Source: Flectobacillus sp. BAB-3569
GTDB taxonomy: Bacteria > Bacteroidota > Bacteroidia > Cytophagales > Spirosomataceae
Assembly (NCBI RefSeq): GCF_002270355.1
Contig: NZ_NJFZ01000007.1
Span: 124,001-188,000 of the forward strand
Length of the DNA stretch: 64,000 nucleotides
Direction: 5' to 3'
Within the stretch, counting starts at the first letter, position 1. Every line of letters begins with the position of its first letter. Below, in pieces: positions 14,771 through 57,647 of the stretch. The notes under the pieces are model-generated. The model searched no databases, was not told the origin of the DNA, and saw only the letters and a list, made by a program, of their open reading frames with translations. Both the position numbers and the translations under genes were made by a program.

Positions 14771-15046
14771 ATGTACAAAACCTATTGCCTTCTCTCCTTT
14801 TTCTGGATATGCTTTCTATTTAAAGGTCATAGCGCTATGCTATATGCTGAAAATATACTTACTACTGACTCCACGACATTAGACATTCGAGCTTCAAAAG
14901 AAAAGCCTTTCAAATTCTACTATAAAGTAAGTTCTATTCCTCGTTATATGCTCGTAGGACGCGATGGCACAATAATCAGCGACAATGCACCCAGACCAAC
15001 CGATCAACATATAAGAAGTTTTTTGGATGAGATTTTGAAGAAATAA
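14771..15046 (+). CDS. Internally deleted TlpA-like remnant (91 aa)
   Basis: An intact 91-codon frame. An N-terminal hydrophobic export signal and a short linker are joined directly to the last 45 residues of the TlpA-like family: SSIPRYMLVGRDG, then NAPRPTDQ and a helix ending LDEILKK. The thioredoxin active-site region (WCxxC) and the 300-residue N-domain are missing. It could be a decayed copy or a small exported protein that keeps only the cis-proline/tail unit. Its frame is open throughout, unlike the next remnant. Confidence 0.65.
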   Translation: MYKTYCLLSFFWICFLFKGHSAMLYAENILTTDSTTLDIRASKEKPFKFYYKVSSIPRYMLVGRDGTIISDNAPRPTDQHIRSFLDEILKK

Positions 15047-31879: not shown

Positions 31880-32040
31880 ATAAACAGAATGCTATGAGCC
31901 AAAGCTTTAGGCATTTTCTAAGATCTTTTTTTATATGGGTATGTTTGAAAAAAGGGATAAACTTATGCTGAAAGGACTGTTCTCACTTTGTGCCTATGAA
32001 CCTTTGCCCCTATTCCCTCTATCTACAACTTTTCCTTACA

Positions 32041-32088
32041 AAAATACAAACCTCACCACGCTTTTACGCATAGTGAGGTTTGTATTTT
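32041..32088. terminator. Terminator after CRTAC1-like gene 2
   Basis: A 16-bp inverted repeat (AAAATACAAACCTCAC / GTGAGGTTTGTATTTT) with a 16-nt loop, 30 nt past the minus-strand stop. It insulates gene 2 from gene 1. Confidence 0.85.
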
Positions 32089-32117
32089 AGCATTTATTCG
32101 ACCATTTGGAAAAAGTA

Positions 32118-35100: not shown

Positions 35101-35434
35101 TTCCTCCTTTGAAGTTTGATTTTTCTGTAACATTTTCAAACTTCATATTACCCTTATTCAAGAAAATTTTGTTGTCGCTCATGTTGGCAGTAAATACCAA
35201 ATCTACCCAACCATCATTGTTTAAATCTCCAGCGCCAATACCTCCACCATTGTAGAAATACATGTAACGGAAAATATTAAAATCTTTAGTCGGATTGAGG
35301 TCGTTCGAAAAATCAATACCCGTAGTTTCGCCATCTAACAACTCAAAGGCAGGAGGTGTTTTCTTCTGACAGCTTTGTGTAAAAAGAAGGAATAGGGCAA
35401 CAGGGAGGTATATAAGAAATGAAAATCTTTTCAT
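32118..35434 (-). CDS. CRTAC1-like lipoprotein 2 (frameshifted as written)
   Basis: The 5' frame (from 35434) stops at 34508; the 3' frame opens at 34532. Adding one T to the T6 run at 34588-34593 (plus strand) gives 1105 residues, reading LYINQKNGSFADQLTSQIGH across the break. Lipobox FLLFTQSC. The same layout as its paralogues: FG-GAP repeats (GDLNNDGWVDLVF, DYDLDGDLDMFQL), a central ASPIC/UnbV-like part (AIGAKVLIFKK, VRAFQASMEIPLVMGLG), a second propeller block, and the C-terminus GQVKRLQSIKI...VRNNDTLMVL. The break is probably a sequence error or a recent mutation. Confidence 0.8.
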
Positions 35435-35466
35435 CGAATCAGCTTGAATGATGTGTATATCGAAAA

Positions 35467-35503
35467 TTTCCCCTTATGAAGGTTTTACCAACATAAGGGG
35501 AAA
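35467..35503 (-). terminator. Terminator after CRTAC1-like gene 3
   Basis: Stem TTTCCCCTTATG / CATAAGGGGAAA immediately after the minus-strand stop, followed on that strand by a short T-run (AAATTTTCG). It lies in the 74-bp gap between paralogues 3 and 2, so read-through may be partial. Confidence 0.75.
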
Positions 35504-35508
35504 CAAAA

Positions 35509-38500
35509 CTATTTTTTGAGCGCAAATAACCTTGGCACTTCATTGTTGATAAGTGCCAGATACTCAGTCTGACTTTTTACTTTCACAGGCAAAATTTGCT
35601 TGATTTCACCATTCAGTACAAAACCACTTTCTTGATTGGTAAGTACTTCAAACTGTCCTTTTCCCTTATTAATCAATACATTTCCACGACTTGCATCAAT
35701 CATCGCCAACTGCGGAATAAAGCCCGTGTAGTTACCTCCAATAATCAAATCAGGTTTACCATCGTGGTTTACATCAGTTTGTTCGATAGCATTGATACAC
35801 GATAACTGTGCCACTTCTGGCAGGGCTACTACCGTAAAATTGCCTTTACCGTCGTTGATTGCCACGATAGATTTGCAGTACCCCACCGTTTTGGTCAAAC
35901 TTCCTTCTAACACATCCGACGGAAACAAATCTTGCAATGACTTTTTAGCATACTCAGCATGTTGAAGAATCTGCTTTTTCAAGGCTGGGAATTGCTCTGC
36001 CATTTCTCTTTTTAGGAAAACAGGAGAATCCTTTTCATTAATCGTCTTAGTCAAGATTTTATCAATGCTTCCATTTTTATCAAAATCTTTTACCCATATC
36101 TTCAGTGGCGCATCCAACTGGGTATGTAGCGTAAAGTTTTCGCCCATATTGCCCAATACCATGTCGTTGTCTCCATCACCATCAACATCCAATACCTTGA
36201 TTGCTCCCCAGAAACCTGTATATTCTTCCAGTCCATTATCTGCTTTTTCGAATTTGGCGCCTTTAGCCAACAAAGTCACAGGTGCCATCCAGTCGCCCAC
36301 GATGACCAAATCCTTTTTACCATCTTTGTTGACATCCGACAAAGAGGCATCACGCACCATACCGAGTTCTTTTAATTGTGGCGCAACACTTGCTGTCACA
36401 TCCTTGAAAGCTCCTTTTCCATCATTTTGGTAAATAAAACTATTCGGATTCAAGCCGTATTGCATTGGCACACTACGACTTCCTACAAACAAATCTATAT
36501 CGCCATCGGCATCATAATCGAGTGGCAAAACCACTGAAGTGTTCAAGGTATTCATCGGAATAGCTCCCGACGAATAAGTAAATTTGCCTTTCCCGTCGTT
36601 TAGGTACAATCTATCCAACAAGTCATTTGTCCCTTCCGAAACCTCATTACCTCCGCTACCTACGAACAAATCCAAATCGCCATCTTTGTCAGCATCAAAA
36701 ATAGCACCGCAGTATCTTCAAAAAAGGCTGTTCTTTCAAATGATTCTTGTTTGGATAATTTGAAACCAACCGCTGTTTGCAAATACAACATACCTGCTTG
36801 ATTTTTTGCACCTGCTATATAAATGTCCTCTAAACCATCGCCATTGACATCGCCAACAGCAGCCTTTGGACCTTCTTTCGAAAGCATAGCAGGCAGGTTT
36901 TTTTCTTGGTAAAAATCTTCATAAGGATCTTCTTGGTGTTTTTCAAATGACTGTGTTACCCACTGAAAATAACCTTCCACCAACTTTGCCTTTGGATAAG
37001 ACATTTTTTTACCATCCTTCATTTGATACGAAACCAAGCCATCAATTTTAGGATTTTTGTAAATACTAATACGTTGGTCAGGCCAAGTAATAATGAGAGA
37101 ATCTATTTTGGTATTTTTCCCTAAACCAAAATTCAAAACATACTCCGCACTCGACTGAAATCCACGAGAAGGAATCAGTGAACGAGTTTGTGTTTCTTTT
37201 CCTGTAAAAACATCTACTTTGGCTCCTACCGCATAGGTATTTTGACCTTCGCCTTGAAGTTTTACTTTTAAGAAATGAGGCTTTTCGGCCTGTTTGTCAG
37301 AATTGTTGCGATATACAAAACATTGAGCATTGACGTTGTTTACCACCAAATCTTCATCTCCATCGTTATCCAAATCAGCATACATAGCGCCATTCGAGAA
37401 CGACGGCGCATCAAAACCAAAATCCTTAGCCTTTTCTTCGAACTTCAATGATTTAGTATTATGGAAAAAGTTGTTAGGAATTGGCGTTGAAGGCATTTTT
37501 TCAATGATTTTATTAAAATCCTGTTTTACACCCGTCATACGCATATCCTGCACCAGCTCATTGGCAAAAAAGTCAATAAAATCTTGGTCGATTACGTCGT
37601 TGTAAATACCATTACAAACATAAATATCATTGTATCCGTCGTTATCAGCATCAAACATCAAAGCACCCCAACTCCAATCACTCGCGGCTACGCCAGCGTA
37701 ATTTCCTATTTCCGAAAAAGTACCATCTTGGTTATTTAACTGAAGGCTATTTTGCTGGAATTGGTTATAAAAACCACGTTCTTTTTTTAGTTTAAAAACA
37801 TAATGATTATCGAAAGAAGAAGTAGTTTTCAAACGATATTCATCTCGAGGAAGCATATCTGTTGTAATAATTTCCTGATAACCATCATTGTTAATATCGG
37901 CCATATCTGCTCCCATTGAGGCAAGGCTGATATGCTTCATACGTTGCTCGATTTCTTCTTTGAAAGTTCCATCCTTTTGGTTGATATAGAGATAGTCTTT
38001 TTCGTAAAAGTCATTAGAAACGTAGATGTCTGGATAATTATCATTGTTAGCATCGCCAATGGTTACACCCAAGCCAAAACCAATCAATGAGCTATAAATA
38101 CCTGCATCTTTGGAAACGTCATGGAAAAAGCCGTTGTCGTTGCGCATCAATTTGTCGCCTCCGCCTTTCAAGAAATCCTTTACTGGCCAATCTTCAGCAC
38201 GTAATTCACGGTTGTTGGCATAGTTGAGCGTATTGACAGGGATAAAACTGTTGTTGAGGATATAACAATCCAAATCGCCATCTAAATCATAATCAAAAAA
38301 TGCCGCATGAGTGGTATAACCTCCTTCATCTAAGCCATATTTGGCGGCTGATTCGGTAAAAGTCGAGTTACCATTGTTGATAAAAAGAGCATTTTTTTGT
38401 TTTTGAGTAAACTTATTAATCCCTGCGTTGCAAACATAAATATCCAACAAACCATCGTGGTTAATATCGACCATAACCACGCCTGTATTCCATTTACCAA

Positions 38501-38822
38501 TCTCTTCGACGCCCGCTTTTTTAGAAATATCTTCAAATTTCCAGTCGCCTTTGTTGAGATATAATTTATTGGCGCCCATGTTGGAAGTCAAGAAAATATC
38601 GGGCAAACCGTCGTTATTAATATCACCAATGGCTACGCCTCCGCCATTGTAAAAATTGCGGTAATTGAATATATTGAAGTCTTTTGAGTTTTCGACTTTA
38701 TTCACAAAATCAATGCCCGTATCCTTGCTATCCATGAGTTCGAACACGGTGTCGCTTTTACTCGAACATCCCAATCCAATTCCCATCAGGGCTATTAGCG
38801 ACAATTGTTGTAATACTTTCAT
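35509..38822 (-). CDS. CRTAC1-like lipoprotein 3 (frameshifted as written)
   Basis: The 5' frame ends at 36660 and the 3' frame opens at 36675. One extra base in the A5 run at 36697-36701 (plus strand) gives 1104 residues reading AVLFFDADKDGDLDLFVGSG, which matches ALFFDADGDKDLDLYW of paralogue 1 at the same place. Lipobox IGLGCSSK. FG-GAP repeats (GDINNDGLPDIFL, DYDLDGDLDCYIL), an ASPIC/UnbV segment (PSRGFQSSAEYVLNFGLGK) and the C-terminus GEIKQILPVKV. It lies 75 bp downstream of the GH97 gene, so the two are probably co-transcribed. Confidence 0.8.
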
Positions 38823-38897
38823 TCTTTTGTTTATATAAGGTTAGTTATGGTTGTTAAAAAACGATTTTTTTCATTTTTCAACCCAACATTCATTATC

Positions 38898-40961
38898 CTA
38901 TTTAATGCTGATGGCAAATCCACCACCTTTAGCGATTTTGATGGTACGTTTGGTTTGGGAATCCACCGAAACCTTTTGGATTTGATATGCCTCTGGATTT
39001 TTCTCCCAATCTGCATTGCTTGCATCTTGGTAAATGGTGGCTGTATAAGTTTTACCAGCAGGCAGAAAATCAAAATTCACCAAAAGCTCTCTTGAATTTT
39101 CATCACTCACGGCACCCACAAACCACTGATTTTGTCCTTTTTGCTTACGCGCAATCATGATAAATTCTCCTGGCTCGGCAGAAAGGATTTTAGTATCGTC
39201 CCAATCTACAGGAACATCTTTAATAAATTGCAAAGCATCGGGGTAAACCTTGAGATTTTCTGGCAAATCGCCCACCATCTGCAAAGGACTGTACATAGTC
39301 ACATACAATGCCAATTGTTTGGCCAAGGTCGTGCGTACACGTGTAGTGCGAGATGGAATAAACTGATTGAGGTGCATTTTGAAGAAACCTGGCGTATAAT
39401 CCATCGGACCACCCATCAAGCGAGTGAATGGCAAGATGGTTTCATGCTCTGGTACCAATCCCAACGTTGGAGCGTTGTTGAACTCATTTCCACGAGCCGC
39501 TTCGTTGGCTAACCAGTTTGGATACGTACGGTGCAAGCCCGTTGGACGAGATGACTCATGTGCTTCAATCATAATTTGATACTCAGCAGCTTTTGCTGCT
39601 ACACGATTGAAGTGATTTACCATCCATTGACTATCATGATGCTCGCCACGAGGAATAATACGACCAACATAACCCGTTTTGGCAGTTTCAAAACCTTTAT
39701 TTTTCATAAATTGAAATGCCTTATCCATACGACGCTCATAGTTGGTCACCGAACCCGAAGTTTCGTGGTGCATAATCAATTTGACATTTTTCTTTTTGGC
39801 ATAAGCTAGTAAAGCATCTACATCATAGTCCGAATAAGGAGTAACAAAATCAAACACCTCTTCTTTCCAGTTACCAAACCAATCTTCCCAACCTTCGTTC
39901 CAGCCTTCGACCAAGACGCCATCGAAGCCATGTTCTGAAGCAAAATCTATATATTTCTTAACATTTTCGGTATTAGCGCCGTGTTTTCCTCCTACTTTTT
40001 CCCAAGTAGCTTTACCCACGTGCATTTCCCACCACATACCGATAAATTTCTGTGGTTTTATCCAATCGGTCTTTTCAATTTTGGAAGGCTCGTTGAGATT
40101 AAGAATGAGTTTAGATGCCAAAATATCTTCGGCTTTATTACTCAATACGATAGTTCTCCAAGGAGTATTAAAAGGCGTTTGTAAATAGGCTTTATTACCA
40201 ACTGCATCAGGCGTGAGATGTGAAGTTAGACCAAAAGTCTTGGTATTTGCCATCAGGTGCATGACAGGATAATTGACCAAAGCCGCCTCATGGATATTCA
40301 AATATATTCCTTGGGGCGTTTTCATCATCAAAGGCGTTTGAATGGCATTATCTGCAATCAAGGATTGTAGGGCTATATCTTTTTCCTTTTTAGCAGCGGC
40401 TAAAGCGTGAATTTCAGAAAATAAGGTTGTATTGTACAAATATTCATTAGTATCATAATCCCCAGGAATCCAGAAAGTTTTGTTATTAGTCGCTAGATTG
40501 AATTGCGTCAACTCATCGGCAACTATAAAATGCTTAAATCCTTCTTGCTCAGGAAATTCATAGCGAAATCCGATACCATCATTAAAAATCCTAAAAACAA
40601 CATCAATCAATACATTCGCAGGAATAGCTTTCAGACGAAGCTTGAGTTGCTTGTAATGGTTTTCGATACTTTTTACCTCTCCCCAAACAGGATTCCAAGT
40701 TTCAGAAAACTCACTAGAATCAGCAGAAATCAAGGTGAAATTTGTGAGAGAAATAGCAGGTTTTTGAAGTTTAAAACCTAAAGAAGAAGGCTTTACAACC
40801 GAAGTTTGAGCCAAATTTAAGGCATATGTAAGTTTACCTTCATTACTGACATTGACAGTCAAATTAACACGTGCATTCGGAGAGGCAAGATGGTATGCCT
40901 TTTGAGAAAAAACCTCTGCTGACAACAGCAAAAGCCCCAATAATAAGCCAGTGAATTTCAT
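38898..40961 (-). CDS. GH97 family glycosidase (alpha-glucosidase/alpha-galactosidase type)
   Basis: 687 residues, within the normal GH97 range. Signal peptide LLLGLLLLSAEVFSQ. N-terminal beta-sandwich, then a TIM barrel with GVLVEGWNEGWEDW, KLIMHHETSG and AHESSRPTGLHRTYPN, then the family hallmark EAARGNEFN and GGPMDYTPG; C-terminal beta-sandwich. GH97 enzymes contain calcium near the active site. The HHET motif suggests the inverting SusB-like (alpha-glucosidase) branch over the retaining alpha-galactosidase branch, but this needs alignment. It acts in the periplasm on oligosaccharides imported by SusC/D-type systems. Confidence 0.9.
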   Translation of the reverse strand: MKFTGLLLGLLLLSAEVFSQKAYHLASPNARVNLTVNVSNEGKLTYALNLAQTSVVKPSSLGFKLQKPAISLTNFTLISADSSEFSETWNPVWGEVKSIENHYKQLKLRLKAIPANVLIDVVFRIFNDGIGFRYEFPEQEGFKHFIVADELTQFNLATNNKTFWIPGDYDTNEYLYNTTLFSEIHALAAAKKEKDIALQSLIADNAIQTPLMMKTPQGIYLNIHEAALVNYPVMHLMANTKTFGLTSHLTPDAVGNKAYLQTPFNTPWRTIVLSNKAEDILASKLILNLNEPSKIEKTDWIKPQKFIGMWWEMHVGKATWEKVGGKHGANTENVKKYIDFASEHGFDGVLVEGWNEGWEDWFGNWKEEVFDFVTPYSDYDVDALLAYAKKKNVKLIMHHETSGSVTNYERRMDKAFQFMKNKGFETAKTGYVGRIIPRGEHHDSQWMVNHFNRVAAKAAEYQIMIEAHESSRPTGLHRTYPNWLANEAARGNEFNNAPTLGLVPEHETILPFTRLMGGPMDYTPGFFKMHLNQFIPSRTTRVRTTLAKQLALYVTMYSPLQMVGDLPENLKVYPDALQFIKDVPVDWDDTKILSAEPGEFIMIARKQKGQNQWFVGAVSDENSRELLVNFDFLPAGKTYTATIYQDASNADWEKNPEAYQIQKVSVDSQTKRTIKIAKGGGFAISIK

Positions 40962-41224
40962 AGATTGATATAATATTGTTTAAATAAAAATGGTTTTTAA
41001 AAAAGGGGAAAAGGGAAGAGGCTCAAAGGCACAAAGGGAGAATTTTGAATGATGAGTTGTGAGTGCTGAGTGATGAATGTAAAATTTTAATCGCCCACTA
41101 AAACCCAACTTCTCTTTACCTATACCCTGAACCCTATCCCCTAAAAACACTTTGTGCCTTTGCTACTTTGCCCCTGTTCACTAAAACTAATGCCTATCCT
41201 CTAAACCCTGACCCCTATCCCCTC

Positions 41225-44200
41225 CTACTTCCACACATACCCTTCCACTCCTTCGTTATTTTTTCCAACGAATAAATGTTTTGGTAGAGCTAGGACAGAT
41301 TTAATATCTCCTTTGAAAAATAGACCTGTTTGAGCGACAGACAAACTTTCGAAGGCAAACTTTCCCTTATTTTTCAACAAAATACCATAATTGGCGTCAA
41401 CCTTGCCAATTCTCAGACGCAATTTACTATTATTACCAGCTAACAAAATATCGGTTTTGCCATCCTTGTCAAAATCTTGCAAAGCTATCGCATATACAGG
41501 GGCGTATTGGGCTTGCATCGGTAACTGATGTGCCACAAATTTCCCTTTTTGATTTTCCAGAACCAATGTTTTCAAGTTAGTAATCTCTAGTCTATGTGCT
41601 TTCTCTAAAGCTGCTTGGTCAAAAACATCCTCTATCGTTGCCTTGGCAAAAGTGGCATAATCTGGGAATTTCTTTTTCAAAATTGGCATTTGCTCTGCCA
41701 TTTCGTCTCTGGTACAAGCTGGATAAGATTTTCCTTGAATGTAGTAGTTGAGGAAAAAGTCAACAGTTCCGTTCATATCAAAATCGTCAAAAACTAAACT
41801 AGCAGGCTCAGCTTTTGAAGCACGAATTTGGGTGTTTAAACCCAAATTCCCCAATACAATATCAAGGTCTTTATCTCCGTCCAAATCGGCTTGAGAAAGG
41901 CTTGTGTACCAACCCGAAGGAATATCTGTTGTCTGAGTTTCAAACTTTTTATTGCCCTTATTTTTTAGAATCATCGGACTCATCCACTCTCCTACTATAA
42001 ATATATCAGGGCTTCCATTTTGGTCAAAATCATCAATCGCAGCGTCTGTCACCAAGCCAAACGCATCTAATTCTTGTTTGGTAAAATGCCCTTTACCATC
42101 ATTCCATAAGATAGCACTCTTTTCTGCTACTGGAAAACGATTAGGTTGAATATGTCCACCTACAAAAACATCCAAATCGCCATCTTTATCAAAATCTGAG
42201 GCTTTTACTGTTTTGGTATTCAAACCATCTTCAATAGTTTGAGCAAGTTTTAAATTTCCCTTTCCATCATTTAACCATAATTGGTCTTGTTGTTCTGTTA
42301 ATTGTGCATTAGCATAATTTCCAACTGTTACATATACATCTGGCCATTGGTCGCCATTAAAGTCGCCAACCACGGCATCTTGTTGAAAAACAGGCGGCGC
42401 TGGAAGTTTTTGTTGCGTAAAACCTTCTCCTTTTGCCAAGTAGATTACTGGCGATGATGAAGCATTTCCACATACCCAAACATCCATTTGTCCATCTCTA
42501 TTAAAATCACCCGCCACCATTTTCGGACCAGTGTAAGAATAGTGCATCGGCAACATTACCTGACGGTCGAAGTTATTGGTAAGAGCTATCTCAGAAACCG
42601 CCGAAGGAATGATTGTTTTGGTGAAAATTGGATTTACTTTTTGCTCCGCTTGTAGAGCATTACAAGTTGGTGTTTTCTGATAAATTATGTCGTATTTACT
42701 ATCTGCTTTAGGTTGACACAATTCTGTAATAGAACCTTGCGCATCAGGCCAAAATACCTTTACAGAAATAACTTTTCCATTCCCAATTCCAAAAGTCAAA
42801 GGCTCAAGGCTGCTCGACTGAAAACCACGACTATTAGCTATTTCTTGAGTTAAGGTCATTGTGGAATCATTTCCTTGTACACGAACCTGCACTTTAGCAC
42901 CAATGGCAAAAGGATTTTGAGAAGAACCCGTCAGTTTTACTTTTACCGCATGATAATCTGGCTGGATTTTTTGACTTTGATTTTCATACACATGAGCCTT
43001 ATCGTTTAGGTTGTTCGTAATAATCTCAATATCTCCATCATTATCCAAGTCGGCATATACTGCACCGCTTGCCACGGTAGCGCGGTCAAAGCCCCAATTT
43101 ACTTGCTCGTTGACAAAACCTAATTGATGGTTATTTCTAAAAATATAATTCTTGGTTTGACTCGTCGGCATTTGCTTCAAATGTTCCAATAAGGGCTTTT
43201 TAGCACCATAAGCCTCCTCATCGTTGTAATATTTGATAAAGTCGGCATTGGTATAATCTTTTCCTAAACCATTACTTACAAAAATATCTTTGTAACCATC
43301 CAAGTCAAAATCTGCCATGAGCGTTCCCCAACTCCAATCGGTATTAGATACACCAGCCAATTGCCCTATCTCTGCGAACTGTCCACTTCCTTGGTTTACC
43401 TGCAACATATTGCGCATATTGGCATGCCAAAAACCATTTTGCAACTGTGCCTGATAGGTATTCCAGTTGTCTGGCCAAAGCAACAATTTTTGTCGAGCAT
43501 TATCCTCCGGCAGCATATCCAGCGTAAAAATATCGGGCAGGTTATCGTTATTGATATCCGCAATATCTACTCCCATCGACGAGTAAGAGGTATGTCCAAT
43601 ACGCTCACGGAGTTCATCTTTGAAAGTTCCATTTTTCTGGTTGATGTACAAATAGTCATCCTCCACGTAGTCGTTGGTTACATAAATGTCGGGATAACCA
43701 TCCTGATTGACATCCGAAACCATCACTCCTAAGCCAAAACCCAATGGATTTCCTTTGATACCCGCTTGTTCGGATACATCGGTAAAATGTCCATTATCAT
43801 TTCTAAATAGCTTATCTCCTGCATTATAGTCACGTGCTGCTCGCATTACGGCTGCCTCCTTACGTTGATATCCAGCTAGGTTATGGTTAATCAGAAAGCA
43901 ATCTAAATCACCATCGAGGTCATAATCTACAAAACTAGCTTGCGTAGAATACCCTGAATCATCCAGTCCATATTCTTGTGCTTTTTCGGTGAATGTCAGA
44001 TTATGATTATTGATAAAAAGCTGATTTTTACGAATTTCCTCTGACCTTAATCCAGAGTAACAAACGTAAATATCCAGCCAACCATCGGCATTAATATCAA
44101 CCACTGAAACACCTGTTTTCCAGGCACCCTGTCGACCAGCCACACCTGCTTTGGAGGTTATATTTTCAAATTGCATTTCGCCTTTGTTCAGGTACAAAGC

Positions 44201-44479
44201 ATTAAGCACTTGATTGCCTGTAAAATACAAATCAGTTAAACCATCGTTGTTGAAATCGGCAGCAGCAACACCTCCTCCATTATAAAAATATTCATAATTA
44301 AGAATATTTTCTTGTTCAGATTCTGTCACGATATTAGCAAACTGAATACCCGTTTCTTCAGGTGTTTTGAGTGTAAAAAGTGTATCTTGATTTTTACAAG
44401 AAATACTTACCATACCCAAAAATCCTAGGTAGCATATATTTTTAAAAATATGTTTTATCACTATCAAATGCTTTGTCAT
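41225..44479 (-). CDS. CRTAC1-like lipoprotein 4 (FG-GAP/VCBS plus ASPIC/UnbV)
   Basis: 1084 residues, intact. Lipobox GMVSISCKN. The same plan as the other three copies: FG-GAP loops (AADFNNDGLTDLYF, DINADGWLDIYV, DYDLDGDLDCFLI), an ASPIC/UnbV-type centre (AIGAKVQVRVQ, NSRGFQSSSLEPLTFGIG) and a C-terminus with KGDIKSVLALPKHLFVGKNN. It differs from the others in context: it begins 17 bp after a DUF4249 gene and so ends a lipoprotein-TBDT-DUF4249-CRTAC1 operon rather than following GH97. The upstream gap to GH97 (40962-41224) holds only low-complexity repeats. Confidence 0.88.
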   Translation of the reverse strand: MTKHLIVIKHIFKNICYLGFLGMVSISCKNQDTLFTLKTPEETGIQFANIVTESEQENILNYEYFYNGGGVAAADFNNDGLTDLYFTGNQVLNALYLNKGEMQFENITSKAGVAGRQGAWKTGVSVVDINADGWLDIYVCYSGLRSEEIRKNQLFINNHNLTFTEKAQEYGLDDSGYSTQASFVDYDLDGDLDCFLINHNLAGYQRKEAAVMRAARDYNAGDKLFRNDNGHFTDVSEQAGIKGNPLGFGLGVMVSDVNQDGYPDIYVTNDYVEDDYLYINQKNGTFKDELRERIGHTSYSSMGVDIADINNDNLPDIFTLDMLPEDNARQKLLLWPDNWNTYQAQLQNGFWHANMRNMLQVNQGSGQFAEIGQLAGVSNTDWSWGTLMADFDLDGYKDIFVSNGLGKDYTNADFIKYYNDEEAYGAKKPLLEHLKQMPTSQTKNYIFRNNHQLGFVNEQVNWGFDRATVASGAVYADLDNDGDIEIITNNLNDKAHVYENQSQKIQPDYHAVKVKLTGSSQNPFAIGAKVQVRVQGNDSTMTLTQEIANSRGFQSSSLEPLTFGIGNGKVISVKVFWPDAQGSITELCQPKADSKYDIIYQKTPTCNALQAEQKVNPIFTKTIIPSAVSEIALTNNFDRQVMLPMHYSYTGPKMVAGDFNRDGQMDVWVCGNASSSPVIYLAKGEGFTQQKLPAPPVFQQDAVVGDFNGDQWPDVYVTVGNYANAQLTEQQDQLWLNDGKGNLKLAQTIEDGLNTKTVKASDFDKDGDLDVFVGGHIQPNRFPVAEKSAILWNDGKGHFTKQELDAFGLVTDAAIDDFDQNGSPDIFIVGEWMSPMILKNKGNKKFETQTTDIPSGWYTSLSQADLDGDKDLDIVLGNLGLNTQIRASKAEPASLVFDDFDMNGTVDFFLNYYIQGKSYPACTRDEMAEQMPILKKKFPDYATFAKATIEDVFDQAALEKAHRLEITNLKTLVLENQKGKFVAHQLPMQAQYAPVYAIALQDFDKDGKTDILLAGNNSKLRLRIGKVDANYGILLKNKGKFAFESLSVAQTGLFFKGDIKSVLALPKHLFVGKNNEGVEGYVWK

Positions 44480-48973: not shown

Positions 48974-50509
48974 TTAGTATCCAACGTTTTGCTTCAAGTT
49001 TGAGTTGATTTCCAATTCTCTTTGAGGGATTGGGAATACAACGCGGTAAGCAGGAGACGCTGTTGTTCTGTTATCAACAGGGTTTGCGAAAGTACCAAAA
49101 CGAATTTGGTCATTTCTTCTCCAACCTTCCCAGTACAATTCACGACCACGTTCAGCCAAGATATTGTTTGCTGTTAATGCAGTCAAAGCAGCTACACCAC
49201 GAGTTGTTCTCAAATTATTAATAATTGTTAACGCACCAGCTGTGTTACCACCTCTGAATAACGCTTCAGCTTTCATCAATAATAAGTCAGCATAGCGGAA
49301 GAATACATAGTCGTTTCCTGGTGCATCAATATTTGACACATCTGGGATATACTTAATAACACGAGCACCATCAGCCTCACTAGCTACTCTAAAATCATAT
49401 TTCAACGTAAAACTAAGTGGCTTTCCAGAACGATCTGTCAATGCTACTCCATTTTGATCAAATTGTTGACCTGCCAATAGACCTGCACGCAAACCTGACT
49501 TATCAGTCAAACCTGGCACTGCAGCACTCAAACGGCTATCTGTTTTCTCAAAGCTGTTATAGAAATCAGATAAAGTAGTAAAACCATTCCAACCACTAGG
49601 CACTTGATTATAGTGCGTTGTCATGTAAAAACGGTTTCTTACTGAAGAACCATTGTCAAGACTAGCACCTTTTTCATTCTGAATTACAAAGATTAATTCT
49701 TTTGAACGAGATGAATTTTCAAAGTGGAAGTTATCGAAGTAACTTTCAGTCAAACTAAATTTACCTGAACCAGTAATGGCATCTGCTAATGATACCACTT
49801 GATCCATGTCAGCTTTTGCAAAAGTAAATGGACCTGCTGGACTAGCTGGATCTTGATCGTAAACAGCTTTGTTCAAATAAACTTTCGCTAATAAGAAGCG
49901 AGCTGCCTCTTTGGTAGCAGTACCTGCATTAGAACCAGAAGCATTATCCAATGTTGGGAGAATTGCATTCAAATCAGCAATGATTTGAGCAGCAGCCTCT
50001 TTACGACTCAATGCTTTTGGTAAAGCACCTGGGTTTGCAGGATCTCTAAATGCCACTTGACCGAATAAGTCCATTGTATAAAACATATAGAACGCACGCA
50101 AGTAAGTAGCTTCCGCCTTTTGTTTTGCCGATGCTGTCGCATTGTTGATTACCTCGTTAGCAAGTGCATGACCACGGTTTAGGTTATTCCATGCAGCTAA
50201 CACATCATCACTTTGGTCAGTCCAAGTATGTGTGTGAAGGTTTCTCCAACGACCATTATCGTCCCAGTCAGCACCACGAGTTGGACCTTGCATTTCATCA
50301 GAAGGATGTTCTGTCAAAGCGTAAATAGCAGCTTGATCAGTAAAAGTACCCAAACTTTGATATGCCGATTTCAATGTTAATTCAGGAGAAATCGATGAAG
50401 CGTCTGTCAAACGATCTAGTACAGCATCATCCAAATTTGTACATCCGATCGCGCCTCCCATTGCTAAAGTTAACAACGAAGGGTACAATATATTTTTAAA
50501 ATTTTTCAT
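48974..50509 (-). CDS. SusD/RagB family outer-membrane lipoprotein
   Basis: 511 residues. Lipobox AMGGAIGCTN. Family signatures: AWNNLNRGHALANEVINN, ATYLRAFYMFYTMDLFGQVAFRD with the TPR-like helices, YVFFRYADLLLMKAEALFRGG, and the C-terminal INNLRTTRG, LAERGRELYWEGWRRNDQIRFG, VFPIPQRELEINSNLKQNVGY. SusD proteins cap the SusC barrel and bind the glycan or peptide ligand at the surface. Spacing to susC is 72 bp. A terminator follows. Confidence 0.95.
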   Translation of the reverse strand: MKNFKNILYPSLLTLAMGGAIGCTNLDDAVLDRLTDASSISPELTLKSAYQSLGTFTDQAAIYALTEHPSDEMQGPTRGADWDDNGRWRNLHTHTWTDQSDDVLAAWNNLNRGHALANEVINNATASAKQKAEATYLRAFYMFYTMDLFGQVAFRDPANPGALPKALSRKEAAAQIIADLNAILPTLDNASGSNAGTATKEAARFLLAKVYLNKAVYDQDPASPAGPFTFAKADMDQVVSLADAITGSGKFSLTESYFDNFHFENSSRSKELIFVIQNEKGASLDNGSSVRNRFYMTTHYNQVPSGWNGFTTLSDFYNSFEKTDSRLSAAVPGLTDKSGLRAGLLAGQQFDQNGVALTDRSGKPLSFTLKYDFRVASEADGARVIKYIPDVSNIDAPGNDYVFFRYADLLLMKAEALFRGGNTAGALTIINNLRTTRGVAALTALTANNILAERGRELYWEGWRRNDQIRFGTFANPVDNRTTASPAYRVVFPIPQRELEINSNLKQNVGY

Positions 50510-50581: not shown

Positions 50582-53500
50582 TTAGAAATTAGCGTTGATA
50601 CCTAATGAGAACGTTCTAGCTCTTGGGTAAGAAATATAATCGATACCCAATGATGGTACTCCATTTCTAACCGCAGCAGTGTTTGTCACTTCTGGATCTA
50701 GACCTGAATAATTAGAGATCAACAACAAGTTCTGACCTGTTAACGAAACATTAAGAGACTTAGCAAAACTGTTTGCTGGTAACTTGAATGTATAACCCAA
50801 TGAGAAGTTAGATACACGAATAAAATCAGATTTCTCTAGGTAGAATGCTGATGGTACTGGCGCATCACCAAATGATTGACCAGTAGTACTTGAGATTGTT
50901 TGGTAAGTTACGTTATTACCTTGTTTTACTGATGCTCTATTTAATACAGCGTTAGCAGTGTTGTTGTAAACGTATCCACCTTGTTGACCATTGATAAACA
51001 AGCTAGCATTCCAGCTACCCAAGTTAAAGCTGTTGTTCAAGCCCCAAGTCATTGTAGGGAAAGGGCTTCCTTTATATGTTTTATCAGCAGAAAGCTTTGT
51101 ATTACCATTTTCATCATAACCTAAGAAATCAGCTAAGAAGAAACCATACAATGGATAACCTTGAGTAATTGGTTGGATAAATGCTCCTGATAAACCTTGA
51201 CCGTACAAGTTACCAGTTTGAATAGTTGCAACGTCCAAACGAGCAATCTCATTTTTCAAGAAGGTTGCATTAGCAGATATTTCCCAATCCAATTTTTTGC
51301 CAGCTAAAACTTGATAGTTTAACGAAACTTCAACCCCTTTGTTTCTAATATCAGCAGGGATATTGCTCCATCTTGTAGTTGCAACGTCTGGTTGTGGTGC
51401 AGCAAATGGGAACAACAAGTTGTTTGTAGATTTGTTGAAGTATTCAACTGTACCAGACAAACGACCTTTCATTAATGCAAAATCTAAACCAATGTTTACT
51501 GCAGTAGTAGTTTCCCATTTAATGTCTGGGTTAGGTACATTTTCTTTTTGCAAACCACCTGATGAAGAGTTAGGAGCATAAGTCGCCAAAGAAGTATTAG
51601 TTGGGAACTCTTGGTTACCTGTGATACCCCAACCAGCTCTTAATTTCAAATCACTAAATACCTCTTTTGGAACAAATTCCTCGTTAGATAATCTCCAAGC
51701 ACCAGCAAATGATGGGAAGTAACCATATTTGTTGTTAGCACCGAATTTTGATGAACCATCCACACGTAAAGTTGCAGTCAATAAGTATTTGTCAGCATAA
51801 TTGTAGTTTACACGGCTAAAATATGACTGTAACTCACTCATTCCTTTACTTGAACCACCAGTATACGCTTTGTTAGTTCCTGAGTTGTTCACAAAATTGA
51901 TATTGTTAACCAAATCAAAACCTGCAGGAGATACAAAGAAATTCGCTTGAATGAAGTTACTTTGGTTTTCAAACTGTTGATAAGAGAAACCAGCCAAGGC
52001 ATCGATTTTATTCTTACCCAAATCTAACTTGTAGTTTAACGTGTGCTCCAAAGTTGTTGTAGTCAAATAGCGATTTGCGATACGTGCGTAGCCTTGGTTA
52101 CCAGGAATGTTTGTTGCAAAACCAGGTGTATTAGGATCAACACTTGTTCTTGTTACACCATCAGAATTATCATAACCAAAGTTAGCTTTGTAAGATAAGT
52201 TTGGTAGGATATTCCAAGTACCACTGATGTTCATCAAAGTTCTGTTTGTTACAACACCACCTCTATATTGATTTAATAATGAAACAGGGTTACGGAATGA
52301 TGGAGTACCATTAGTAAAATATGAACCATCTGTCGAATAAACAGGGTAAGTAGGGTTAGTTTTGATAGCCGTTGAAATAACGTTTCCTTCAAAACCGATG
52401 TCACCACCTGTTGCAGATAATTGGTCAGTTACTTTAGTAGATGTCATTGCTACAGCCAAAACAACTTTGTTATCAAACAATTTGTGCGTAGCATTTACAC
52501 GAGCTGTAACTTTCTTCATTCCTGAGTTTTTGATAGTACCTTGTTGGTCGTTATAACCCAAAGAGAAGAAGTAGTTAGTATTATCATTACCACCACCGTA
52601 GCTCAAGTTGTAGTTTTGAGCAATCGCTGTACGATATACTTGATCTTGCCAGTTTGTATTAGAACCAGCATTAATCAATTTATTATTTACATCCAAACCA
52701 GCAGCAGTAGCTTGTTTCAAGAAATCAGCTGTAGACAATACATCATAATTCTTGTAGTTGTTCGAAATCGCTGTACTAGCAGAAAAGTTCAAATTACTTT
52801 GTCCAGATTTACCTTTCTTAGTAGTGATCAATACAACACCATTTGCACCACGAGAACCATAAATAGCGGCAGAAGAAGCATCCTTCAATACAGAGATGTT
52901 TTCAATATCACTTGGGTTCAAGAAGTTCAATGGGTTTCTCGCAGCTGTTGTACCAACACCTGCACTACCATCTGTACCATCAGAAGTGTTTCCACCATCC
53001 AAAGGAATACCATCTACAACATACAACGGACCATTACCTGAACGAATTGAAGTGGTACCACGAATACGGATGTTGATACCTGCACCTGGCTCACCAGAGT
53101 TAGGAGTCATTTGAACACCCGCCGCACGACCTTGTAATAATTGTTCTGGAGAAGCAATCACACCTTTGTTAAAATCCTTAGCAGTCAACGCTACAACACC
53201 ACCTGTTGCATCTTTCTTCGTTGTAGTACCATAACCTACTACTACAACTTCTTCCAATGCTTTCGTTTCAGATGCCAATGATACGTTCACTTGCGAACGA
53301 CCACCTACTGAAACTTCTTGTTTTGCATAACCTACAAATGAGAAAACCAAAACAGCATTGTCTGATACATTGCTCAATTTGAATGAACCTGTAGCATCTG
53401 TTTGTGTACCTTTGTTTGTTCCTTTTACACTTACAGATACACCTGGTAGTCCAGAGCCATCGCCACTGTCAGTAACTTTTCCGGTAACAGTTTTGTCTTG

Positions 53501-53620
53501 AGCATAAGCCCCAATAGACAAAAGCATAGCTACAGCTATCGCCGCGAACTTAAGAAGTCCCGTTGATACTGCACCTTGTCGCATTGGGCGACCAAACCAT
53601 CGGTAAAAATGATTTTTCAT
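50582..53620 (-). CDS. SusC/RagA family TonB-linked outer-membrane protein
   Basis: 1012 residues. A long N-terminal leader (signal ending SIGAYAQ, about 40 residues) precedes a carboxypeptidase-regulatory-like domain (TVTGKVTDSGDGSGLPGVSV), the TonB box region EVVVVGYGTTTKKDATGG, a plug (SPEQLLQGRAAGVQ, NIRIRGTTSIRSGNGPLYVV, ISVLKDASSAAIYGSRGANG) and a 22-strand barrel ending RTFSLGINANF. It imports oligosaccharides or peptides with its SusD lid, powered by TonB. The neighbouring GH97 suggests an alpha-glucan or galactoside, but that gene is 9 kb downstream. The leader mRNA may be long; see the candidate promoter at 53889. Confidence 0.95.
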   Translation of the reverse strand: MKNHFYRWFGRPMRQGAVSTGLLKFAAIAVAMLLSIGAYAQDKTVTGKVTDSGDGSGLPGVSVSVKGTNKGTQTDATGSFKLSNVSDNAVLVFSFVGYAKQEVSVGGRSQVNVSLASETKALEEVVVVGYGTTTKKDATGGVVALTAKDFNKGVIASPEQLLQGRAAGVQMTPNSGEPGAGINIRIRGTTSIRSGNGPLYVVDGIPLDGGNTSDGTDGSAGVGTTAARNPLNFLNPSDIENISVLKDASSAAIYGSRGANGVVLITTKKGKSGQSNLNFSASTAISNNYKNYDVLSTADFLKQATAAGLDVNNKLINAGSNTNWQDQVYRTAIAQNYNLSYGGGNDNTNYFFSLGYNDQQGTIKNSGMKKVTARVNATHKLFDNKVVLAVAMTSTKVTDQLSATGGDIGFEGNVISTAIKTNPTYPVYSTDGSYFTNGTPSFRNPVSLLNQYRGGVVTNRTLMNISGTWNILPNLSYKANFGYDNSDGVTRTSVDPNTPGFATNIPGNQGYARIANRYLTTTTLEHTLNYKLDLGKNKIDALAGFSYQQFENQSNFIQANFFVSPAGFDLVNNINFVNNSGTNKAYTGGSSKGMSELQSYFSRVNYNYADKYLLTATLRVDGSSKFGANNKYGYFPSFAGAWRLSNEEFVPKEVFSDLKLRAGWGITGNQEFPTNTSLATYAPNSSSGGLQKENVPNPDIKWETTTAVNIGLDFALMKGRLSGTVEYFNKSTNNLLFPFAAPQPDVATTRWSNIPADIRNKGVEVSLNYQVLAGKKLDWEISANATFLKNEIARLDVATIQTGNLYGQGLSGAFIQPITQGYPLYGFFLADFLGYDENGNTKLSADKTYKGSPFPTMTWGLNNSFNLGSWNASLFINGQQGGYVYNNTANAVLNRASVKQGNNVTYQTISSTTGQSFGDAPVPSAFYLEKSDFIRVSNFSLGYTFKLPANSFAKSLNVSLTGQNLLLISNYSGLDPEVTNTAAVRNGVPSLGIDYISYPRARTFSLGINANF

Positions 53621-53888
53621 AGGTAATATTAAGATTGGGAAAAATGGTTAATGAAATTTGAGAACGCTCTTCACAGCATTTTTGAGTAAAAACCATCATA
53701 CTAGAAAGATTGTTTTGGGAATTAGTAGTTAGTCTAGTTATGGAATTTTCTTACTAAAAAGTATGAATTTGCTGTGATTTCACACAACAAAGTAGGCGAT
53801 AAAGTTTCTATAATTCAATTTTTTTTGGAAAAAATTTTATTTCAAAAAATACTTATTTTTACCAAAATTGCACTAAAACGATACCTTG

Positions 53889-53921
53889 CAAACTTAGCAC
53901 AGTGTAGGACAGATTTGCAAA
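53889..53921 (-). promoter_or_regulatory. Candidate Bacteroidota promoter for susC
   Basis: On the minus strand, TTTG (53918-53921) is followed after 21 bp by TAAGTTTG (53889-53896), fitting the -33 TTTG / -7 TAnnTTTG consensus. Transcription would begin near 53882 and leave a leader of about 260 nt before the susC ATG at 53620. Confidence 0.5.
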
Positions 53922-53938
53922 ACTTTGTAAAACTTTGC
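53914..53938. repeat. TTTG motifs at exact 10-bp phase, array 1
   Basis: TTTGCAAAAC-TTTGTAAAAC-TTTGCG: three TTTG motifs at 53914, 53924 and 53934. The array overlaps the candidate -33 region of the susC promoter, so a regulator could bind one helix face here. Confidence 0.55.
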
Positions 53939-54241
53939 GTATTCACGTTTTTTGTTAATAAATGTTAAAAACGTCTTCAATTACACAATAAAAAAACATT
54001 GTACTTTTCCAATAAATAAAATAATGAATTTTGTACTCTTTAGAACAGTCTAACATTCTTTTATTAATACATTAAAACAGGAAAATTTCTACATTTAAGC
54101 CTATCATCACAAAAAAGTACAATTATTTATTTGGCTTTATTTAAAATCGTTTTGGTATTTTACTTCATACAAACATTATTAAATACCTATTCCAAAATCC
54201 CTTAATTTCTCCGTTTGTCTCATGGGTATCCCAATGCAATA

Positions 54242-54280
54242 GTTTGAATAAGTTTGCATAATGTTTGCAATCGTTTGCAA
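54242..54280. repeat. GTTTG(C)A motifs at 10-11-bp phase, array 2
   Basis: GTTTGAATA, GTTTGCATA, GTTTGCAA and GTTTGCAA start at 54242, 54252, 54263 and 54273, one helical turn apart. They lie about 350 bp from array 1 and share its TTTGCAA core. Confidence 0.6.
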
Positions 54281-54584
54281 AATATTTCAGCATAATCATT
54301 GCTCTATATATCCTAAATAATCTGCACATTATGAATTGACAACTTCTCTTTTTTTGGCTTTTGCTATACATTTTCATGTGACAGATAAGTATATTTTTGC
54401 ACGAATTTGCTTTTAACTAGATAACCAATTTCCTTGCTATTTATCGCTCCATATAGCCGAGTTATCTACACTTTCCCATCACTCTTCTGTTGTATTGAAA
54501 TGTAATACTATTGGTTATTCTACTTCATTCTTTCTAATCTTTTATTACCGTAATTTTACTTAGGCTGTTATGCCTTTAATTTCG

Positions 54585-54592
54585 TATCTTTG
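54585..54592 (+). promoter_or_regulatory. Candidate -7 box for the FAD/Fe-S oxidoreductase
   Basis: TATCTTTG matches TAnnTTTG, 110 bp before the ATG at 54702. No convincing -33 TTTG lies at 19-21 bp upstream, so support is partial. Confidence 0.4.
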
Positions 54593-54701
54593 AGCATTCA
54601 ATTCTGTATTGATAAACCAAAAAACTCTTTCATAATTCGTACTAATTTTGCATTAATCTGAATAGCAATCATACTATTGATAGATTAATCCCTTATCAAA
54701 A

Positions 54702-57647
54702 ATGAGTCAAAAAGTAAGTAATCAGCTCTTAGCACAACTTGCTGGTACGCTTGAAGGTGATTTCCATTACGATACCGTAATGCGTACCTTGTATGCGACC
54801 GACGCTTCGGCCTATCGTGAAATGCCTACCGCTGTTGCTATCCCAAAATCGGTAGAAGACATCAAAAAACTTATTGCTTTTGCTGCCAATAATGGTTCCT
54901 CCATTATTCCTCGTACCGCTGGTACATCGCTTGCTGGACAGGTTGTTGGTGACGGTATTGTGGTAGATGTTTCTAAAAACTTTACGAAAATCCTCGAAAT
55001 TAATAAAGAAGAACACTGGGTGAGAGTACAACCAGGGGTGGTACGCGATGTGCTCAACATGGAGCTCAAAAAACATGGCTTATTCTTCGGGCCTGAAACC
55101 TCTACTGCCAACCGTGCTATGATTGGCGGGATGGTCGGAAACAACTCATGTGGCTCCAATTCAGTAGTTTATGGGTCTACCAGAGACCACCTATTGGAAG
55201 TGCACGCTATTTTAGCAGATGGTTCAGAAACCGTTTTTAAGTCAACTGACAAAGCTAACTTTAGCGCTTTGGTAGCTACAGCACAGCAAAAAAATGGCTC
55301 TGCAACCCTGTTAGACAAGATTTATCTCAAAACTAACGATATACTCAGCGATTCAAAAAATCAAGATGAAATCCGTGCAGAATTTCCTAAGCCTACCATC
55401 GAACGTAGAAATACAGGATATGCATTAGATATGCTTTTGAACTGTGAGCCATTTACACCAAATGGAAAACCGTTTAATATGTGTGAACTGATTGCTGGAT
55501 CAGAGGGTACACTTTGTTTCATCACCGAAATCAAAATCCATGTAAACGATTTACCTCCAAAAGAAATTGGTTTATTATGTGTTCATTTCAATACTATAGA
55601 CGAAGCTCTTAGAGCCAATCTTATTGCGATGAAATACAAGCCATCTGCTTCGGAACTGATGGATCACTATATCTTAGAATGTACAAAAGCTAATCCTGAA
55701 CATCGTCAAAATCGTTTCTTTGTAGAAGGCGACCCTGGTGCTCTTTTGGTAGTTGAGTTACGTGATAATGATGTTTCAGAAATTGAAAAGCAAGCTGCTG
55801 CTATCGAGGCTGAAATGCGTGCTGCAGGCTTTGGCTATCATTTCCCTCGTGTTTATGGTGCTGATACCAAGCGTGTTTGGGATTTACGCAAGGCTGGTTT
55901 AGGACTACTATCAAACCTTCCGGGTGACGAAAAAGCAGTAGCTGTTATCGAAGACACAGCTGTGGATGTCAATGACCTCCCTGAGTTTATCAAAGAATTT
56001 AATGAAATTCTTGCAGCCAATAATATGTATTGCGTGCATTATGCACACGCAGGCTCTGGCGAACTTCACCTCCGCCCTATCATCAATTTAAAGACAGAGG
56101 AAGGCAATAAACAATTTAGATTGATTGCAGAAGAGATTGCTACTTTGGTAAAAAAATTCAAAGGTTCTCTTTCTGGAGAACATGGTGATGGTCGTTTGAG
56201 AGGTGAATTTATCAAACAGATGGTTGGTGACCACAACTATCAATTGATGAAAGAAATCAAAAAGGTATGGGATCCTAAGAATATCTTCAATCCAAATAAA
56301 ATTGTAGATACTCCTCCAATGGATACGTTCCTACGCTATACGCCAGGACAAACTACCCCAGAATTCAAAACTACTTTCCGTTTTTACGACCAAGATATCT
56401 TGCAACATGCCGAACAATGTAACGGTTCGGGCGACTGTCGTAAGACGCATATGTCTGGCGGAACTATGTGCCCTTCTTATATGGCTACTCGCAATGAGAA
56501 AGAAACTACTCGTGCTCGTGCCAACATATTAAGAGAGTTTTTGACTCGTTCGGACAAAGCCAATCGTTTTGATCATGAGGAAATCAAGGAAGTGATGGAT
56601 TTATGCTTGGCATGTAAAGGCTGTAAATCTGATTGTCCATCGAACGTAGATATGGCAAAATTGAAGATGGAATTCTTGCACCAATATTACAAGGATAATG
56701 GAGTACCTCTTCGTAGTAAAATGATTGCCAATTTCTCTAAGCTTTCAAAAGTTGCTTCTTATGTGCCTTGGGCTTATAATTTGGTATTTGACACGCCTGC
56801 ACTTCGTAAAATTGCTAATAATATCGTCGGATTTCACCCAGAGCGTACTATGCCTCTTTTGGCAAAAGAAACTTTCTTAAATTGGAATAAAAAGCGTTCA
56901 AAATCGACGGGATTAAGCAAAAAAGTATATCTATTTGCTGATGAATTTACGAATTACAACGACGTAGAAATCGGTAAAAAAGCAGTTGAGTTATTAGAAA
57001 AACTGGGATATGAAGTCGTTATTCCAAACCATGTAGAATCTGGACGTCCGCAGCTATCAAAAGGTTTATTGGACGATGCAAAAGCATTGGCAACGAAAAA
57101 CGTAACCTTACTAAAAGATGTTATTTCAGAAAATACGCCTTTAGTAGGTATTGAACCATCAGCAATTCTAACTTTCCGTGATGAATATCCTGATTTAGTA
57201 GACGATAACTTATTAGAAGATGCTAGAAAATTAGCAAAAAATACCTTTATGGTAGAAGAGTTTTTGGCGAAAGAAATTGATGCTAAACGTATTGATAAGT
57301 CTTTGTTTACAAGTGAAAAACGTTTGATAAAATTACACGGTCACTGTCAACAAAAATCACTTTCTAGCTTAGTTCCTGCTAAAAAAGCGCTTTCATTACC
57401 GAGCAACTATGAAGTTCAATTGATTCCAAGTGGTTGTTGTGGTATGGCTGGTTCGTTTGGCTACGAAAAAGAACACTTCGAGCTTTCTAATCAAGTAGGT
57501 GAATTAGTGTTGTTCCCAACAATTCGCCAACAACCGGATGAAGTAATCATTGCAGCTTCAGGTACAAGTTGCCGTCACCAAATCCATGATGGTACTGGTC
57601 GTACAGCTTTGCATGCGGTTGAGATTCTTCACGCAGCCTTGAAATAA
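54702..57647 (+). CDS. FAD-binding and 4Fe-4S oxidoreductase (D-2-hydroxyacid dehydrogenase type)
   Basis: 981 residues, YdiJ-like in size and order. The N-terminal FAD-binding PCMH domain has IIPRTAGTSLAGQ and MIGGMVGNNSCGSNSVVYG; the FAD-linked oxidase C-terminal domain has HYAHAGSGELHLRP and SGEHGDGRLRGEF. A ferredoxin-like region follows, with CNGSGDC..., MCPSYMATRNE and CLACKGCKSDCP, then a CCG-type C-terminal domain with GHCQQKS and SGCCGMAGSFGY. Relatives oxidise D-lactate, glycolate or D-2-hydroxyglutarate and pass electrons to the respiratory chain at the inner membrane. The exact substrate is not readable. Confidence 0.92.
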   Translation: MSQKVSNQLLAQLAGTLEGDFHYDTVMRTLYATDASAYREMPTAVAIPKSVEDIKKLIAFAANNGSSIIPRTAGTSLAGQVVGDGIVVDVSKNFTKILEINKEEHWVRVQPGVVRDVLNMELKKHGLFFGPETSTANRAMIGGMVGNNSCGSNSVVYGSTRDHLLEVHAILADGSETVFKSTDKANFSALVATAQQKNGSATLLDKIYLKTNDILSDSKNQDEIRAEFPKPTIERRNTGYALDMLLNCEPFTPNGKPFNMCELIAGSEGTLCFITEIKIHVNDLPPKEIGLLCVHFNTIDEALRANLIAMKYKPSASELMDHYILECTKANPEHRQNRFFVEGDPGALLVVELRDNDVSEIEKQAAAIEAEMRAAGFGYHFPRVYGADTKRVWDLRKAGLGLLSNLPGDEKAVAVIEDTAVDVNDLPEFIKEFNEILAANNMYCVHYAHAGSGELHLRPIINLKTEEGNKQFRLIAEEIATLVKKFKGSLSGEHGDGRLRGEFIKQMVGDHNYQLMKEIKKVWDPKNIFNPNKIVDTPPMDTFLRYTPGQTTPEFKTTFRFYDQDILQHAEQCNGSGDCRKTHMSGGTMCPSYMATRNEKETTRARANILREFLTRSDKANRFDHEEIKEVMDLCLACKGCKSDCPSNVDMAKLKMEFLHQYYKDNGVPLRSKMIANFSKLSKVASYVPWAYNLVFDTPALRKIANNIVGFHPERTMPLLAKETFLNWNKKRSKSTGLSKKVYLFADEFTNYNDVEIGKKAVELLEKLGYEVVIPNHVESGRPQLSKGLLDDAKALATKNVTLLKDVISENTPLVGIEPSAILTFRDEYPDLVDDNLLEDARKLAKNTFMVEEFLAKEIDAKRIDKSLFTSEKRLIKLHGHCQQKSLSSLVPAKKALSLPSNYEVQLIPSGCCGMAGSFGYEKEHFELSNQVGELVLFPTIRQQPDEVIIAASGTSCRHQIHDGTGRTALHAVEILHAALK

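Follow-up and report, generated by a model that had tools for sequence, protein, structure and literature searches.

Operons of the SusC/SusD type rank among the major nutrient-uptake systems of Bacteroidota; outside gut Bacteroides, to our knowledge, most of the regulators that control them are uncharacterised. Among regulators that recognise tandem direct repeats, those of the OmpR/PhoB type are the textbook case of head-to-tail binding, and in E. coli the Pho boxes overlap the upstream promoter element. In AraC proteins the two helix-turn-helix (HTH) motifs normally recognise words that differ from each other, and the genes of hybrid two-component sensors (HTCS) are usually linked to their locus.

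Head-to-tail tandem binding to direct repeats has been described for regulators of the PhoB/PhoP type (PMC4415409, partial text), the operators of which are composed of 7-bp repeats with a 4-bp spacer (PMC4832192, partial text). In B. fragilis, PhoB has been found to bind the pst promoter (PMC3547664, partial text). Predicted HTCS motifs of Bacteroides are direct repeats averaging 21 bp apart, according to the available part of PMC3878776. BldC was described as binding variable numbers of AT-rich direct repeats at 9 bp per protomer, with protection from approximately -60 to -10 of one promoter (PMC5859096, partial text). The housekeeping promoter of Bacteroidetes carries TTTG near -33 and TAnnTTTG near -7 (PMC7366714, partial text). 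In the literature searched, no Bacteroidetes Pho box with direct repeats, TTTGCAA promoter element or response-regulator TTTG direct repeat was found, nor was anything to the point found for Flectobacillus or Arcicella.

The susC locus and the genomes compared

The window examined here (the whole stretch of DNA analysed, 64 kb in length) encodes on its minus strand a susC/ragA-type TonB-dependent outer-membrane transporter (50582..53620; TIGR04056, 724 bits against a cut-off of 368), which is the presumed target gene of the elements described below. A SusD-family gene is situated next after susC (48974-50509). Further downstream, at 28577-44479, the susC strand also encodes a series of large FG-GAP / UnbV-ASPIC repeat proteins together with a GH97 enzyme. 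The divergent gene on the plus strand (54702..57647) encodes an FAD/Fe-S oxidase whose nearest family is D-2-hydroxyglutarate dehydrogenase YdiJ, with a score below that family's cut-off. The intergenic region between susC and the oxidase gene is 1081 bp in length (53621-54701), with a G+C content of approximately 27%. Of 14 genomes in which susC was matched, nine have the divergent oxidase adjoining the susC orthologue, as judged by coordinates; this conserved linkage of a YdiJ-like oxidase and susC as divergent neighbours is unexplained.

Comparison was made among five congeners of genus g1 (G000 to G004, with G000 being the window's own genome), and Arcicella aurantiaca was added as a sixth genome. 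Among the susC-homologue loci collected, L109 (NZ_JAAALB010000007.1) comes from a record named 'Cellulophaga sp. BC115SP'. Its SusC is 95% identical to that of the window and it groups with Flectobacillus longus; the genus name of this record is probably wrong.

A Pfam scan of 37 of the 77 listed window ORFs of at least 80 aa (ORFs 5769-7664 and 14771-15046 being among those outside the scan) identified a regulator, HTH or sensor domain in none of the 37. This agrees with a first-pass annotation of the locus, made from the sequence, which had remarked that no regulator gene is adjacent to susC.

Two phased TTTG arrays upstream of susC

Two arrays of TTTG words were identified in the intergenic region, neither of them assigned to a strand. 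Array 1 (53914..53937) is a 10-bp direct repeat over the -33 region of susC with the arrangement TTTGCAAAAC-TTTGTAAAAC-TTTG, its TTTG words lying at 53914, 53924 and 53934 (steps of 10 and 10 bp). Array 2 (54242..54281), located 350 bp farther upstream, is composed of four TTTG words at steps of 10, 11 and 10 bp, with GTTTG copies at 54242, 54252, 54263 and 54273 and an inner TTTGCAA pair at 54264-54280. The first-pass annotation had reported these positions and steps correctly, and the repeats are real both by inspection of the sequence and by comparison with randomised DNA. Dinucleotide shuffling of 53621-54701, repeated 5000 times, never produced two runs of three or more TTTG words at 10/11-bp steps, nor a single run of four; runs of three or more averaged 0.011 per shuffle. 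Two TTTGYAA-N3-TTTGYAA pairs were obtained in one of the 5000 shuffles. Among step pairs from 6/7 to 20/21 bp, runs of three or more were obtained with 9/10 and 10/11 alone.

For array 2, the motif had been proposed as GTTTGNA. Four copies at 10, 11 and 10 bp are indeed present, but the conserved word that is common to both arrays is TTTG(C/T)AA (TTTGYAA) at 10-bp steps, and the initial G varies among the genomes.

Conservation and spacing of the arrays

Alignment of the regions upstream of susC orthologues, suggested earlier as a check on the arrays, revealed that both are kept in the compared genomes while most of the surrounding DNA diverges. Twenty three TTTG words are present in the intergenic region of G000, and those found to be identical in all five genomes were at 53914, 53924, 53951 (just upstream of array 1) and 54264; the words at 53934 and 54274 each differ in one of the five. 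In the five-genome alignment, 21 of the 24 columns of array 1 are invariant, a level reached by two of the 782 24-bp segments starting at or beyond 53897, both of them at array 1. The first two units of this array are kept in all six genomes compared, while its third unit is altered to ATTG in G004 and to GTGTG in Arcicella aurantiaca, where the array reads TTTGCAAAAGTTTGCAAAAGTGTG.

With regard to array 2, the inner pair is kept in five of the six genomes compared, in one of them with an altered base (the last copy being TATG in G003). The outer two GTTTG copies were found only in G000, G001 and G002, with array 2 of G003 and G004 being a single 10-bp doublet. On the evidence of the alignment, the inner TTTGCAA pair is the old core of array 2, older than the outer copies. 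The core (54264-54281) has 15 of 18 columns invariant among the five genomes; this was reached by 21 of 788 18-bp segments, of which the array 2 core is the sole one starting beyond 54055. Six differences separate G000 from G001 across array 2, all of them outside the TTTG cores. Moving from susC toward the oxidase gene, no strongly conserved island follows array 2 in the five-genome alignment, in which G004 is gapped near the oxidase gene, so that invariant columns are undercounted there. Array 2 is absent from the intergenic region of Arcicella aurantiaca (approximately 531 bp). More distant genomes that also possess the divergent gene pair (G005, G007, G011 and G013) were found to have no TTTGCAA in this region, and among 80 susC-homologue loci a TTTGYAA pair was identified in L108-L111 only.

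The first TTTGCAA of array 1 (53914) and the third array 2 word (54264) are separated by exactly 350 bp. This separation is the same in four of the five congeners (G000, G001, G002 and G004) and 337 bp in the remaining one (G003), a departure of 13 bp that is not a whole number of helical turns. Array 1 lies 293-302 bp from the susC start across the five congeners, and array 2 lies 438, 439, 436, 343 and 568 bp from the oxidase start. Array 2 thus travels with susC, its distance to susC being near-fixed while that to the oxidase gene ranges from 343 to 568 bp. The retention of 350 bp in G004 despite a much-diverged spacer hints at a constrained distance between the arrays, in a sample of five related genomes, which is few, with G003 and Arcicella departing from 350 bp.

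Chance occurrence and uniqueness of the repeats

Runs of at least three TTTG words at 10/11-bp steps were found at three places in the window, namely the two arrays, both of which lie outside ORFs of at least 100 aa, and position 7229, which is inside an ORF. No such run was found on the minus strand of the 64-kb window. Across the whole genome, 52 bare TTTG triples were counted against 33 for a reversed-pattern control, three of the 52 coming from the region of the arrays. Thirty triple matches, none of them from that region, were located, and ten of these lay outside ORFs of at least 100 aa. The genome-wide count of the bare triple is therefore weak evidence for the arrays: as such triples are not rare, phase alone would not carry the claim.

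It is the fuller word that carries it, as exact TTTGYAAAASTTTGYAAAA was found at the susC locus only among 59 genomes. There it occurs once in each of the five congeners, in array 1 in every case. Equal frequency of such repeats in unrelated intergenic DNA, raised earlier as an argument that would count against the arrays, was thus not seen for the exact repeat. Allowing up to one mismatch, TTTGYAAAASTTTGYAAAA gave 24 matches in the 59 genomes against ten for the reversed control, five of them exact and 19 with one mismatch. Eleven of the latter fall within ORFs of 80 aa or longer; the remaining eight do not, and one of these is array 2 of G004. One non-coding pair of one-mismatch matches (G000:C22 and G001:C39) was observed to lie in a common stretch of approximately 270 bp. 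A spaced-repeat pattern search returned as its only matches two overlapping placements in array 2, with one match for the control. The looser form TTTGNAA-N3-TTTGNAA had 23 matches in the window's own genome (10 + 13; control 3 + 6). No wider regulon emerged there, as the four of the 23 with the TTTGYAA form were the two arrays and two matches inside ORFs of at least 80 aa.

Candidate promoter, leader and further conserved islands

On the susC strand of G000, the sequence fits a -33/-7 promoter. A candidate -33 TTTG (53918..53921, minus strand) lies inside array 1, and a candidate -7 element, TAAGTTTG (TAnnTTTG; 53889..53896, minus strand), fits the Bacteroidetes consensus. The overlap of the TTTG array with a candidate -33 element, pointed out in the first-pass annotation, is accordingly present, with array 1 containing the TTTG at 53921-53918. 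Because TTTGCAAA in array 1 is a palindrome, the plus-strand repeat supplies this minus-strand TTTG. Among relatives, the TA of the -7 element is kept, while its TTTG half drifts to TAAGTTGA in G003, TATGATGT in G004 and TAAACTTTG in Arcicella. Scans for sigma-70-type promoters and for terminators yielded no more matches than chance predicts (5 against 7.3, and 0 against 0.2, respectively).

The long susC leader that had been proposed was found to be conserved. A block around the susC start codon (53613..53653, minus strand) is nearly invariant in the genus; among ten genomes searched, it occurs once in each of the five congeners (0-1 mismatch) and in none of the other five. This block is near-identical in congeners though their SusC proteins are 52-96% identical to that of the window. 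An AT-rich leader element of 38 bp (53805..53842, minus strand), for which an A/U-only hairpin is possible, had one match each (up to three mismatches; control 0) in seven of 29 genomes belonging to three genera. By coordinates, it is upstream of the susC orthologue in all seven, and it is more widely kept than the arrays. The eight pairs of the hairpin never vary, and so give no covariation evidence for it. The consensus fold of the leader is weak (-7.8 kcal/mol, with a covariation term of +1.6); double changes were seen in one or more sequences for six of the 29 pairs predicted, and five of these six are also broken in others. A search for a known RNA element in Rfam returned STAXI as its sole match up to an E-value of 1 (19.7 bits against a gathering threshold of 40.5, E 0.1).

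Additional islands, not assigned to a strand, were identified between the arrays. A second 10-bp direct repeat, GTTAATAAATGTTAA (GTTAA-N5-GTTAA; 53954..53968), has both copies kept in the five congeners with variable bases between them, and is altered in Arcicella; G013 keeps this repeat without a TTTG array. The island TTGTACTTTTC (53999..54009) has an inverted partner at 54113-54123, and in G000 ATTGTACTTTT (53998-54008) and AAAAGTACAAT (54113-54123) are exact reverse complements. Both are conserved, and they are possibly the sites of a second factor. A further island, ATTCTTTTATTAATAC (54055..54070), was identified in the five-genome alignment. Judging from these islands, and from the longer-lived element in the leader, the arrays are not all that the region contains.

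A proposed regulator of susC and the alternatives

As they are kept by related bacteria, the arrays are probably docking sites for a gene-control protein. At both sites the words fall on the same face of the helix once per turn and are kept while the bases between them vary, and for this reason they are read here as head-to-tail operators. We are somewhat inclined to believe that both arrays are bound by a single unlinked regulator, and that susC is under its control. The two arrays would then be two operators for a single sequence-specific transcription regulator, arranged head-to-tail with one subunit per TTTGYAA-type 10-bp unit and all subunits on one face of the helix. As array 1 covers the -33 element of susC and the DNA immediately upstream of it, a protein bound there could recruit or block RNA polymerase; its position leads us to prefer class II activation over repression.

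Array 2 would act as an auxiliary site 350 bp upstream that raises the occupancy of array 1, probably by looping. Cooperative binding of one regulator at both sites with looping had been put forward in the first-pass annotation. The shared conserved repeat fits the idea of one regulator; looping between the arrays is suggested by spacing only, and it would not be essential in Arcicella, where array 1 is kept without array 2.

The putative regulator would be encoded elsewhere in the genome, with a winged-helix response regulator of the OmpR/PhoB type as the leading candidate. Twelve matches to Trans_reg_C (winged-helix) over the cut-off were identified in the genome, one of them in a reading frame containing a TGA, and none of the 12 lies within the coordinates of the window. 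If a single regulator is indeed involved, this family has perhaps one half of the probability; it is a leading guess, with the AraC type as a serious rival. That a two-component regulator should have a single target operon is unusual, which counts against this explanation. A Pho regulon was considered and is not supported: the best match to PstC (TIGR02138) in the window's own genome scored 26 bits, where the cut-off is 196, and an identical search of 14 control genomes gave matches in all 14, with 12 over the cut-off.

Binding of the arrays by an AraC-type regulator, either stand-alone or an HTCS, is the strongest of the competing explanations and is nonetheless unlikely. A dimer of such a protein would cover four successive grooves, since each subunit has two HTH motifs approximately one turn apart, and array 2 of G000 can be divided into a pair of 10-bp doublets (54243/54253 and 54264/54274) offset by 21 bp, with copies 1 and 3 of array 1 being 20 bp apart. 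Alternate copies do lie at this HTCS-like spacing of 20-21 bp, but the copy between them is also conserved, and every copy is the same word. The doublet of doublets is moreover confined to G000, G001 and G002, with G003 and G004 having one doublet in array 2, and the 37 window ORFs scanned contain no HTH.

It is less probable again that array 1 is merely a reinforced core promoter with tandem -33-like TTTG words, and that array 2 is unrelated to it, for example as a promoter or operator of the oxidase gene or of a small RNA. In favour of this, the housekeeping promoter of Bacteroidetes has TTTG as its -33 word (PMC7366714, in the part available), and TAAGTTTG also occurs at 54249 on the plus strand, where it fits a -7 element. 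Against this, the additional TTTG copies in array 1 are not on the strand of susC transcription but on the opposite one, the conserved word runs past TTTG to TTTGYAA at both arrays, and array 2 holds its distance to susC and not to the oxidase gene. The TAAGTTTG at 54249 is itself CAAGTTTG in G002, with the copy missing in G003 and G004.

A more elaborate form of the one-regulator reading may also be entertained, in which a regulator with essentially a single target promoter would polymerise head-to-tail into a filament on the variable-copy 10-bp repeats, both at the core promoter and at the outlying site 350 bp away, with a fixed loop gating the susC operon. We regard this as doubtful, below the preceding alternative; no such one-target filament-and-loop architecture of regulator and operator was found in the literature searched for Bacteroidota.

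Head-to-tail polymerisation of a BldC-like single-domain protein of the MerR type on the repeats, with distortion of the DNA, appears very unlikely. The copy number of the arrays varies as well (2 to 4), but the unit here is 10 bp (once 11 bp) and the word is TTTGYAA rather than AATTnnnnC; BldC is described in the available part of PMC5859096 as a pleiotropic regulator, whereas the array motif is unique to one locus. Equally improbable is an origin in intrinsic DNA curvature without a sequence-specific protein, or in chance repeats of AT-rich DNA, for which the AAAA tracts recurring every 10 bp in array 1 and the bare TTTG triples elsewhere in the genome could be cited: the AA/TT phase sum (a crude measure) places the arrays at the 30th and 35th percentile of the region, and scores as high or higher were obtained for fractions of 0.56 and 0.48 of all 40-bp segments in the 64 kb, so that the DNA-bending control once suggested for these sites is not borne out by their ordinary phasing, and both the shuffles and the conservation speak against chance.

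Comparison with described systems

Like Pho boxes and other OmpR/PhoB operators, the arrays are tandem direct repeats approximately one turn apart (steps of 10 and 10 bp, and of 10, 11 and 10 bp). They differ from Pho boxes in their word (TTTGYAA), in a period that is mostly 10 bp and not 11 bp, in their restriction to a single locus and in the presence of a second array 350 bp away; in addition, their genome has no PstC match over the family cut-off.

The arrays further resemble the Bacteroides HTCS operators, as far as these are described in the available text of PMC3878776, in being same-face direct repeats upstream of a sus-type operon with alternate copies 20-21 bp apart. They are distinct in having an identical word every 10 bp, in place of the two sites approximately 21 bp apart with a non-conserved spacer given in that text. 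A second array is also present here, with no regulator in the scanned window ORFs. The occurrence of two same-face sites upstream of sus genes is shared with SusR-type operators, for which separations of 67 or 77 bp are given in the same source, compared to 350 bp here, where each site is itself a repeat. Similarity was also seen to the Streptomyces BldC sites, which are variable-number AT-rich direct repeats over a promoter; in the portion of PMC5859096 available, these have a 9-bp unit with AATTnnnnC and many targets, and the arrays differ from them in both respects.

A tandem-repeat operator with a remote auxiliary site is thus known as a kind, while this array site and its regulator were not found in the literature searched. 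As a conserved and locus-unique pair of candidate operators, the arrays would provide a clean bait for the regulator and a means of testing long-range control in environmental Bacteroidota.
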